DNA of 6,039 nucleotides from positions 1 to 6,039 of the forward strand of contig DYMR01000121.1 in the NCBI GenBank assembly GCA_020721485.1. The letters run 5' to 3'. The position numbers and the translations under genes were made by a program. Under the pieces are notes generated by a model. It worked only from the letters and a program-made list of their open reading frames with translations. It was not told where the DNA came from and made no database searches. Each line of letters begins with the position of its first letter. Within the stretch, counting starts at the first letter, position 1. The DNA is from Halothiobacillus neapolitanus. GTDB taxonomy: Bacteria; Pseudomonadota; Gammaproteobacteria; Halothiobacillales; Halothiobacillaceae. Shown here one piece after another: positions 2,738 through 5,721 of the stretch.

Positions 2738-3985
2738 TTATTCCACGGCATCCGTGGCGGGGGAATGCCCGGCGGGCGGCGTGTCGCGCACGATGCGCCC
2801 GTGTTCGATGCGGATGGGCAGCGGGGTTAGCGCTTCGCCGGGGCAGGGGCCGTGGGTGCAACTGCCGCCGTTGAGGCTGAAGCGGGCGTTGTGGACGGTG
2901 CAGCGCAGCATCAGCGCGCCGTCCCGTTCGAGGGTGTAGCCGCGATAGCCGCGCGCCAAGGGGGATCCATTGTGCGGGCAGACATTGCGGAACGCCTGCA
3001 CGCGCCGGCCATCGCGCACGATGATGATGCTGGGCACGCCGCCGACGGGCGCGACGCCAATCGCATCGGCAGGGCCGAGGTCATCCAGTCGGCACAGGGC
3101 GTCATCGGGCGCGGCGGCGGGGTTGAGATCCTCCAGGCCGATCTGCTGAAGTTTGCGTTCGGCGAGGCGCGCGCCGAAGGTGACGGCCTCTGCCCAGCTT
3201 TGGCCGATCAGTCGTGCGTGAATGGTGCCGGCGATGAGGGTATCTCCGGCGCCGACGCTGTCCACCGGTTGCCCGATCGGTTCGCTGGGAATGGCGATGG
3301 CCTCGGCCAGCGGTTCTTGCACAAACGCGCCGCTGGCGCCCCAGGCGAGGACGCAGACGGCCTGCGGCGCCCAATCGCGGGCGGCGGCGAGCGCGGCTTC
3401 CGGCGTGCTCAGCCCGCGCCCTTCGGCAAAGGCGCGGCCGATGAACAGCACATCGGACAGCGGAAATAGCTGCGCGAGGTAGGGGCGTTCTTTTTCGACT
3501 TCTAACGAGCGAATCGCCTGCCGCTGCTTGGCCTGCGCCAAGGCCATCATCGCGGCGGTGTCCATGCAGTGCCGCCCTTCAAAATGCAGCCATTCGAACG
3601 GGCTTAAATCGATCGCCAAGAATGCATTGAGGTCGAATTCCGGCAAATCGCGGTAGTGCACAATCGTGCGGCTGCCGGTTTTGCGGTTCAGCGTGATGTA
3701 GGAAGTCGGCGTGGTGCCGAAGCCGGTGCGGTGGCAGGCGGTGGTATTCAGCCCGCGTGCCGCGAGGGTGTCATGGAGCGTTTGCCCGCCCGCATCCGGT
3801 GCCAGCACGGCGGCGAGGTGGCATTGATGGCCGAATTGCGCGAGCACGCTCAGGCTGTTGGTGACATTGCCGCCGGGGGTTTGCCGTTGAGCCAGCGCGC
3901 GTTGCTCACTGTCTTCGCGCGGGTAGCCCTCGGTTTCGTTGATGATGTCGAGGGTGGCGATGCCGACGCCGAGAATCGTGGCCAT
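2738..3985 (-). CDS. Ketohexokinase-like PfkB kinase fused to a Rieske [2Fe-2S] domain
   Basis: A 415-residue protein with two complete domains in one frame. Residues 1-287 are a PfkB/ribokinase-family kinase closest to ketohexokinase. D13 (ATLD), D25 (YPRED), N40 and N43 (GGNVTN), R106 (GSRTI), the LHFEGR block (133-138), EVEKER (162-167) and the anion-hole and catalytic motif DSVGAGDT (242-249, base D248) all match that family in order. Residues about 297-400 form a Rieske domain that begins LCRLDDL. The cluster ligands are C336-x-H338 and C362-x2-H365, followed by GGSCTHGPCPGEALTPLP. A linker of about 10 Ala/Pro/Asp residues joins the two. The expected reaction is ATP-dependent phosphorylation of a ketose-like sugar; the Rieske half could transfer or sense electrons. 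ATG at 3985 is preferred to an in-frame TTG at 4030, which has no ribosome site. The substrate is unknown. Confidence 0.88.
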   Translation of the reverse strand: MATILGVGIATLDIINETEGYPREDSEQRALAQRQTPGGNVTNSLSVLAQFGHQCHLAAVLAPDAGGQTLHDTLAARGLNTTACHRTGFGTTPTSYITLNRKTGSRTIVHYRDLPEFDLNAFLAIDLSPFEWLHFEGRHCMDTAAMMALAQAKQRQAIRSLEVEKERPYLAQLFPLSDVLFIGRAFAEGRGLSTPEAALAAARDWAPQAVCVLAWGASGAFVQEPLAEAIAIPSEPIGQPVDSVGAGDTLIAGTIHARLIGQSWAEAVTFGARLAERKLQQIGLEDLNPAAAPDDALCRLDDLGPADAIGVAPVGGVPSIIIVRDGRRVQAFRNVCPHNGSPLARGYRGYTLERDGALMLRCTVHNARFSLNGGSCTHGPCPGEALTPLPIRIEHGRIVRDTPPAGHSPATDAVE

Positions 3986-4024: not shown

Positions 4025-4079
4025 CCGCAAGGCCGTGTCGGGTTCCGAATGCCGGCGGCGTTTTTTCGCTCACAGGCTG

Positions 4080-4264
4080 TTAACAGGATGTTGAAAAAAG
4101 ACTTCCCTGTCGTTTTTTCAACCCCATCGTTCCGGTACGCGCCCGTAACGATGGGCGAAGATCAAGCACTGACGATGCTTGATCTTCGGGCAAGCCATCC
4201 ATGGTTTGTTTGAACTTGGCTTGCTTTAACAGGCTGTTCAAACCATTTTTCAACAGCCTGTTAA
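4080..4264 (-). repeat. Modular palindromic repeat, copy B (185 bp), inverted relative to copy A
   Basis: Reverse complement of copy A with seven substitutions over 170 aligned bases plus a 15-nt insertion. Terminal inverted repeats are TTAACAGGATGTTGAA (4080-4095) and TTCAACAGCCTGTTAA (4249-4264). Hairpins in plus-strand order: H5 4090-4122, H4 4123-4155, H3 4156-4188 (each 33 nt, abutting), H2 4190-4224 (same 8-bp stem as copy A but a 19-nt loop), H1 4226-4264 (one mismatch at 4239). An extra CACAGGCTG (4071-4079) abuts the inner end. Its outer terminus overlaps the TAA stop of the metallophosphoesterase gene (4261-4263). It lies upstream of the kinase-Rieske gene. Confidence 0.92.
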
Positions 4265-4791
4265 AACGCGCCAGGTACTGGCTGCACCACCCAGGCGTCG
4301 GGCGTGGCGTGCAGAATCAGGCAGCCCGCGCCGCCGTGGGCGCGTACCCGTCCGGCGGCGCCGGGGTTGAGCACCCAAATCGGTTCGTCTTGGTCGATGG
4401 CGCGCCAATGGGTGTGGCCGTAGACAATCGCGCGGGCGGTGGGATGTTTGAGCCGCAGTTTTTGGTGGCGCTGGTGCGCGGGGTGCACGCGGTGGCCGTG
4501 TTCGACGACGAGTAAGCCGCCCGGCAGTGAAAGGTGGACGGTTTCCGGCAGCGCATCCAAAAGGTGGCGGGTGCCTGCCGGCCATTGGTCGGCGGTGTCG
4601 TTGTTGCCGCGCACCGCGAGCACATGGCCGCTTTGCGGGGTGATTTGACGCAGGATGTCGGGGTCGAGAATGTCGCCCGCGTGCACCACCACATCGCAGC
4701 ATTCCAGCGCGTGCAGCAGGTTGCGTTCGATGCTGCCGTGGGTGTCCGAAAGAATGCCGACACAAACCGAGGGGCGGGCTGCCAGATCCAC
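4261..4791 (-). CDS. YfcE/MJ0936-type metallophosphoesterase
   Basis: A 176-residue soluble calcineurin-like phosphodiesterase of the small YfcE/MJ0936 class, which hydrolyses phosphodiesters with two metal ions. The metal and active-site motifs occur in order: D16 and H18 (ILSDTHG), D40 (HAGDI), N63 (RGNND), H98 (VEHGH) and H126/H128 (YGHTH), then LNPG at 141-144. The length is normal for the class. The chosen start is GTG at 4789-4791, with a perfect AGGAGG (4796-4801) four bases upstream. A TTG at 4818 would add nine residues but has no ribosome site. The last codons (PVPGAF) run into repeat copy B, whose terminal TTAA supplies the TAA stop, so the original C-terminus may have differed slightly. 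The physiological substrate is unknown. Confidence 0.9.
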   Translation of the reverse strand: MDLAARPSVCVGILSDTHGSIERNLLHALECCDVVVHAGDILDPDILRQITPQSGHVLAVRGNNDTADQWPAGTRHLLDALPETVHLSLPGGLLVVEHGHRVHPAHQRHQKLRLKHPTARAIVYGHTHWRAIDQDEPIWVLNPGAAGRVRAHGGAGCLILHATPDAWVVQPVPGAF

Positions 4792-4795
4792 ACAT

Positions 4796-4801
4796 CCTCC
4801 T
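4796..4801 (-). promoter_or_regulatory. Perfect AGGAGG ribosome binding site of the metallophosphoesterase
   Basis: The minus strand reads AGGAGG, four bases before GTG at 4791. It falls inside the frame if the upstream TTG (4818) were used, so it decides the start in favour of the GTG. Confidence 0.7.
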
Positions 4802-4848
4802 GATTTGTTGTGGGCCAAGGGGTTTATTCAGCACGAATGCCAAAGCTG

Positions 4849-4923: not shown

Positions 4924-5721
4924 TCAGGCCGGAAAGAGGGTGGCGAGTGCGTCCTGCACATCGCGGGCGACGCGCGCGCCCGGCGGCAGGGCGGTTAAAT
5001 CTTCGGGGCGGAATTTGCCGGTTTGCACCAACAGGGCGCCCAAGCCGGCGGCCTGCGCGCCGCCAATGTCGCTGTGGACATCGTCGCCGATCAGGGTGAT
5101 CGACTCCGGCGGCAGGCCGAGCGCGGCGCAGGCGCGGGCAAACACCGTTGCGCCGGGTTTGCCGCAAGCGATGGCGGTGGTGGTGGCGGCCATTTCGAGC
5201 AGTCGCACGAAGGGGCCGGCATCGAGGGAAAGCCCGTCCGGTTCCTGAAAATAGCGGCTGTCCGACAGGGAATACAGGCGGGCGCCGGCCATCAGGGCGC
5301 GAAACGCGCGGTTGAGGGTGGCGTAGCTGAAGGCGTCGGCGGCATCGCCAATCACCACCGCATCGGGGGATTGGCCGTCGATCAACGGCGGGCAGTGCGC
5401 GAAATCTTCGGCCAGATTGGGGTGAATCACGCACAGCGCCCGGTGATTCGCGGCGCAAAGGGCGTCGGCGGCGGCGCGCGCGGGGGTGAGCAGTTGTTCC
5501 GGCCGCAGCGCAAAGCCGGCCTGAATCAGGCTGGCGTAGAGCTGGGCGTGGCTCTGGCGGGTGGTGTTGGTCAGCAGGAGGAACGGGATGCCGCGCGCGC
5601 GCAGGGTGTCGAGCGCCGCGCGGGCGCCGGGCAGGGCGGCACGCCCATCGGTGAGCACGCCGCCGATGTCAAAAATAATGCCCGCAGGCGGGGGGCGGTT
5701 TGGGCTGGGGTCGTGGGACAT
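4924..5721 (-). CDS. HAD-superfamily IIA phosphatase, LHPP-like
   Basis: A 265-residue cytoplasmic hydrolase of the HAD subclass IIA, closest in pattern to LHPP (phospholysine/phosphohistidine/inorganic pyrophosphate phosphatase). The nucleophile is D18 in IIFDIGGVLTDG. Motif II is T51-N52 (LLLTNTTRQS), motif III is K188 (CGKPG), and motif IV is IGDDVHSDIGGAQAAG with D213, D214 and D218. The cap between motifs II and III carries HPNLAEDF, VVIGDA, LNRAFRALM and a DGLSLDAGPFV block typical of the LHPP group. The second aspartate of the usual DxD motif is replaced by Gly20 (Ser in LHPP). ATG at 5721 follows GGAGGT by five bases. The gene lies 50 bp after the upstream gene and about 130 bp before the metallophosphoesterase, on the same strand. 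The substrate is not determined by sequence. Confidence 0.88.
   Translation of the reverse strand: MSHDPSPNRPPPAGIIFDIGGVLTDGRAALPGARAALDTLRARGIPFLLLTNTTRQSHAQLYASLIQAGFALRPEQLLTPARAAADALCAANHRALCVIHPNLAEDFAHCPPLIDGQSPDAVVIGDAADAFSYATLNRAFRALMAGARLYSLSDSRYFQEPDGLSLDAGPFVRLLEMAATTTAIACGKPGATVFARACAALGLPPESITLIGDDVHSDIGGAQAAGLGALLVQTGKFRPEDLTALPPGARVARDVQDALATLFPA

Follow-up and report, generated by a model that had tools for sequence, protein, structure and literature searches.

The window, that is, the whole 6,039-nucleotide stretch of Halothiobacillus neapolitanus DNA analysed here, carries on its minus strand at 2738–3985 a frame of 415 codons and a stop whose product is a PfkB kinase of the ketohexokinase type with a Rieske [2Fe-2S]-type domain C-terminal to it. 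The kinase-Rieske fusion is a real, conserved and apparently undescribed architecture. The best explanation for it, given slightly less than even odds, is that the Rieske part of the single chain tunes kinase activity to the redox state of the cell or to the state of the cluster. The strongest evidence comes from the pairing of a kinase gene with a Rieske gene in 17 other gammaproteobacterial families, together with an invariant extra pair of cysteines within the Rieske part.

The fused gene runs from an ATG at 3985 to a stop codon ending at 2738, giving a product of 415 amino acids, and a start at an in-frame TTG at position 4030 would lengthen it by 15 residues. The Pfam models recognise a PfkB kinase (PF00294, 100.8 bits against a cut-off of 25.8) and, C-terminal to it, a Rieske domain (PF00355, 39.9 bits against 20.3). 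The kinase domain occupies residues 1–285 (3131–3985, minus strand, as for all coordinates within the gene) and contains a GAGD motif at residues 245–248 (3242–3253) with Asp248 as the predicted catalytic residue, as aligned across fused and unfused sequences. The Rieske domain extends from about residue 296 to 400 (2786–3100) and holds two ligand pairs, C336-x-H338 (2972–2980) and C362-x-x-H365 (2891–2902). The first-pass annotation, which had described an uninterrupted frame joining a ketohexokinase-like kinase with GAGD to a complete Rieske domain with both ligand pairs, is thus confirmed in its reading frame, strand, coordinates and domain content. A contig search returned one locus.

Amongst solved structures the kinase part is nearer to ketohexokinase (KHK) than to other PfkB kinases, both by sequence and by fold, the VIA-align fold comparisons covering residues 1–291 only and hence being silent on the Rieske fold. 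Residues that align with D15, D27, N42, N45, R108, K174 and D258 of human KHK, which we take to be its sugar, phosphate and catalytic residues, are all present in the window protein, and in the 81 fused sequences listed they are kept wherever the column is filled, save for one D27 that is replaced by Asn. Among the matches listed, A246, G247 and D248 of the GAGD motif are found in 81/81 fused and 39/39 unfused sequences, and G245 is replaced by Ala in 25 of the fused and three of the unfused. As the human KHK residues are kept in aligned positions, fructose or a related ketose is the most probable substrate, with phosphorylation predicted at C1. The fused protein scores only 35.9 bits against the FruK profile TIGR03828, the cut-off of which is 292. 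No 1-phosphofructokinase above that cut-off was found in any of the 26 genomes searched; the closest score, 274.6 bits in G002, may represent a true 1-phosphofructokinase. The fate of fructose-1-phosphate can be guessed at as either aldolase cleavage or a signalling role. A role as a fructokinase for sucrose breakdown may also be considered: the sucrose synthase/phosphate synthase-type family PF00862 gives a match in 12 of 26 relatives, including 11 of 17 family genomes, but not in G000, and so does not track the fusion.

A fusion seen once might reflect a frameshift or an assembly error, and this is ruled out by the close relatives. Within the 25 family genomes, the window's own included, 24 contain a match, and in all 24 the kinase motifs, the ligands and the extra cysteines lie in one uninterrupted frame; the sole miss is G023, which is 85% complete. 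The matches in G016 and G020 had contained stops, but the frames that span both domains in these two genomes are 414 and 491 codons long. Homologues were taken as the best 120 of 1124 above threshold, with scoring confined to the candidates sharing most words, and 81 of these 120 carry the Rieske part. All four ligands are conserved in each of the 81 fused homologues listed. The two outcomes that would have spoken against the first-pass annotation, namely separate genes with a stop between them in close relatives and ligands that vary, were therefore not encountered. Fused homologues named among the matches listed come from Halothiobacillus, Guyparkeria, Thiosulfatimonas sediminis and Galenea microaerophila, presumably all sulfur-oxidising chemolithoautotrophs. 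Their database names include ‘PfkB family carbohydrate kinase’, ‘Rieske 2Fe-2S domain-containing protein’ and ‘ketohexokinase’, indicating that the architecture is present in databases without a stated role. In a sample of 299 genomes across the phylum, an uninterrupted match across both domains was found only in the window's own genome, and G367 gave a weaker match across both domains with one stop inside.

The Rieske part belongs to a distinct subfamily. It contains two extra cysteines, C376 and C381, within a GxCxxGPC motif (2843–2860) that is found in 81/81 fused sequences listed and in 38/38 unfused members examined. C381 sits at what we take to be the position of the alanine of the GPAP loop in other Rieske proteins. 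Three other Rieske proteins were matched in the window's genome and do not have the GxCxxGPC motif, one of them (L004) having bc1-type extra cysteines in its ligand loops. The two ligand pairs are separated by 20–29 residues in 78 of the 79 fused sequences counted, with one missing the spacing pattern. A region search with the Rieske part returned nine proteins, all of them close fused ones. In a Rieske tree built on few columns, members that are fused, adjacent to a kinase gene or separate from it are intermixed.

Evidence that the two parts belong together also comes from genomes in which they are not fused. In a class-wide draw of 275 gammaproteobacterial genomes the kinase was counted in at least 76, of which seven have the fusion and 69 an unfused kinase; these counts apply among the matches listed and may hide weaker kinases, and the set of 69 was hand-picked, with weak PfkB matches such as G152 (27%) and G031 (28%) left out. 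A direct search (E up to 1e-5) found the GPC-type Rieske family in 38 of the 69. It adjoins the kinase gene on the same strand in 22, spread over 17 taxonomic families, lies elsewhere in the genome in 16, and was not found at that threshold in 31. The Rieske gene is downstream in 21 of the 22 adjacent pairs, matching the order of the two domains in the fused protein, and upstream in one (G253), with gaps of −7 to 134 nucleotides, those for G026 and G153 being approximate as the kinase ends were entered by hand. Over the class draw, and among the matches listed with E up to 1e-12, the Rieske family occurs in 43 of the 76 genomes with a kinase and in 62 of the 199 without one (p 1.6e-4, kinship ignored). 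Without the fused genomes, at the same threshold and again among the matches listed, the figures are 36/69 against 62/199 (p 0.002, kinship likewise ignored). The occurrence of the two as neighbouring genes in distant bacteria suggests that kinase and iron-sulfur part probably act together; the 31 kinase genomes without the Rieske family and the 62 kinase-less genomes with it indicate that each part has some role alone.

The history of the fusion was followed on trees of the kinase part. A quick tree of 124 sequences, in which the fused state was assigned by a protein length above 365 amino acids or by locus, needs six changes of state, and starred branches make at least five of these unavoidable. 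The fused sequences fall into four groups: Halothiobacillaceae with G162, a group with Thiosulfatimonas and Galenea, metagenomic proteins (P0064 and its kin), and G078. Two unfused sequences, P0062 and P0071, lie inside the Halothiobacillaceae group and are perhaps truncated or perhaps losses of the Rieske part. A thinned tree of 76 sequences, from which P0062, P0071, the three long sequences L056, L048 and L064, and near-copies were removed, needs four changes, and holding all fused sequences together on it is not rejected (p-AU 0.295). Several separate fusions, or splittings, appear on these alignments to be favoured over one origin, for which that same p-AU stands.

An AlphaFold2 model of the protein, built with 54 sequences, has a mean pLDDT of 93.8 and a pTM of 0.84. 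Two blocks around the linker (residues 281–300) have pLDDT values of 90 and 82, and residues 407–415 are disordered. Ketohexokinase dimers are formed by a beta-clasp; the model is of a single chain, and its values in the linker blocks would suit a fixed arrangement of kinase and Rieske domain.

From these elements a mechanism can be proposed. The kinase would phosphorylate fructose, or a related ketose, at C1, whilst a Rieske [2Fe-2S] cluster would be assembled on the same protein and its domain would pack against the kinase in a fixed way. Reduction, oxidation or loss of the cluster would then raise or lower phosphorylation, and C376 and C381 could perhaps act as a thiol-disulfide element in the gating. 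Rieske centres are familiar from respiratory complexes and oxygenase systems, and the reaction of a sugar kinase requires no electrons; most simply, then, the cluster would signal its state to the kinase. The points counted in favour of redox gating are the fusion in 24/24 family loci, the retention of ligands and extra cysteines, the 22/69 gene pairs, the tree, the model and the missing PF00848 match in 12/17 family genomes. Those counted against it, the first three as arguments against a strict coupling, are the 31/69 genomes lacking the Rieske family, the 62/199 kinase-less genomes having it, the lack of a recognised redox partner beside the pair and the p-AU of 0.295 for a single origin. 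A broader proposal, in which a ketohexokinase and a dedicated GPC-type Rieske protein make up a two-part module with an on-board redox switch, present as one fused gene in sulfur-oxidising autotrophs and as a pair of genes in other gammaproteobacteria, is tentative and would sooner prove wrong than right.

The Rieske part could instead carry electrons for a distinct oxidoreductase whose target is the substrate or product of the kinase, so that two steps of a pathway are kept together and the kinase itself is unregulated. By sequence, the solved structures closest to the Rieske part are indeed those of NirD and the soluble oxygenase ferredoxins, all of them weak matches (E 7e-5 to 1e-3), and the frequent occurrence of the Rieske family without the kinase is as expected of a shared carrier. 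The fused protein reaches only 25.5 bits on the NirD profile TIGR02378 (cut-off 74.65) and 24.3 bits on NF042948, the profile of the 3-phenylpropionate dioxygenase ferredoxin HcaC (cut-off 150). Of 17 fusion-bearing family genomes that were searched, five have a ring-hydroxylating oxygenase (PF00848), but no match to it was obtained in the other 12, amongst them the window's own genome (81% complete), which makes a dedicated oxygenase ferredoxin less likely. Inspection of the gene clusters next to the kinase-Rieske pair revealed neither a reductase nor an oxygenase nor any known redox regulator, and no oxidoreductase recurs there. A carrier role is considered unlikely, if far from negligible.

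The gene neighbourhood bears on a second alternative. In 14 of the 15 resolved family loci besides the window (L026–L037, L039 and L042, with L041 as the exception; L038 and L040 were not resolved by ORF calling and lie outside the count) the fusion is followed by a gene of a GGDEF/EAL cluster, the copy in L026, the sole one so checked, having PAS, GGDEF and EAL domains by Pfam. Many of the loci L026–L037, L039 and L042 also have BolA and HDOD genes downstream of the fusion, and the window is without them. This family neighbourhood has a signalling and iron-sulfur flavour. In the window, no GGDEF/EAL gene adjoins the fusion, the best relative being on contig C61; as GGDEF/EAL genes give 32 matches in the window's genome, no such link is claimed outside the family. 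The fused gene of the window has exonuclease I and CBS protein genes downstream and, upstream, genes for a YfcE-type phosphodiesterase (4261–4818, minus strand, by Pfam/profile match) and a HAD-IIA hydrolase (4924–5721, TIGR01458, 188.5 bits against a cut-off of 175.95). Of the 59 loci in which a kinase was recognised, 14 have a YfcE-cluster gene no more than six genes away from it. Inverted repeats flank the fused gene at 2522–2692 and 4079–4264 (137 nucleotides at 93% and 50 at 96%), and a 148-nucleotide piece has 45 matches in the window's genome, some partial, which identifies a dispersed repeat and could be the reason why the neighbourhood is rearranged.

BolA proteins have links with iron-sulfur handling, and their genes downstream of the fusion in many family loci favour a version in which the cluster senses iron-sulfur or iron supply, or oxygen damage, and not electron flow, the kinase working solely when the cluster is intact, or solely when it is not. 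This version shares its genetic evidence with redox gating and the present data do not separate the two. In the window no BolA gene adjoins the fusion, and sensing of cluster supply is given a rather small chance.

Around unfused kinases, a divergent gene for an NTF2-like protein (SnoaL_3/DUF4440) lies 29–73 nucleotides from the kinase in six of the 59 recognised-kinase loci (L046, L049, L051, L052, L057 and L060), all six having an adjacent Rieske gene. Such a gene is also near six of 19 Rieske genes located away from a kinase (a set of 20 loci, of which L094 gave no ORF). The SnoaL-like protein is a possible third part of the kinase-Rieske module; a search for it in relatives, run without a positive control, was empty. 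A transporter gene of the SBF (bile-acid/sodium-symporter) family follows the pair in L046, L047, L051, L052 and L054, the L052 copy being the sole one checked by Pfam. Very long proteins (987–1860 amino acids as called) adjoin the kinase or the pair in L045, L050, L053 and L058, and three of the four start, by eye, with an apparent cyclic-nucleotide-binding stretch.

In L043 (G026) the Rieske start codon directly follows the kinase stop in the same frame, such that a single in-frame stop parts the genes, and in L064 (G153) the two genes share a frame across one stop. An accidental merger of neighbouring genes of unrelated roles, without functional coupling, would be the easy step that L043 suggests and would fit the many genomes in which kinase and Rieske lie apart, but it is very doubtful given that adjacency recurs in 17 families and that the fused form persists across the family and in three further groups of the kinase tree.

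If the preferred reading of redox gating is true, a metabolic kinase is gated directly by a Rieske centre, and sugar phosphorylation is tied directly to electron flow or cluster supply. A conserved partnership of this kind would be a new use for Rieske centres, and since nature offers the two parts fused, as neighbours and apart, the coupling is open to direct test. The titles and opening parts of abstracts found by searches of open-licence papers contain no description of a ketohexokinase/PfkB-Rieske architecture, in keeping with the first-pass annotation, which knew of no described function for the arrangement. There is almost no known physiology for prokaryotic ketohexokinases.

Amongst known systems, human and mouse KHK (PDB 2hqq, 6ul7, 6p2d) have no Rieske domain, unlike the window protein, in which E227 and N107 of the human enzyme are replaced by Ala and Ser at the aligned positions. 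The sulfofructose kinase YihV (7ag6), at 22–23% identity, is likewise without a Rieske domain. The soluble Rieske-type oxygenase ferredoxins (1fqt, 2e4p, 3gce) and NirD (4aiv) are not fused to a kinase, and the Rieske part of the window is further set apart from them by its ligand-pair spacing of 20–29 residues and its extra GxCxxGPC cysteine pair. The Chloroplast Sensor Kinase is a sensor kinase, not a sugar kinase, and is not known to be a Rieske fusion. In that protein an iron-sulfur cluster is reported to confer a redox-sensing role on a kinase (PMC6949291). The haloarchaeal ketohexokinase, the subject of a 2024 paper that terms its result the first report of in vivo KHK function in prokaryotes, is described in that paper as a PfkB-superfamily kinase that yields fructose-1-phosphate, is only distant kin of the eukaryotic KHKs and is clustered with 1-phosphofructokinase and aldolase genes (PMC11519228). 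Compared with that account, the window kinase differs in resembling the eukaryotic KHK and in having no such 1-phosphofructokinase/aldolase cluster seen around it.
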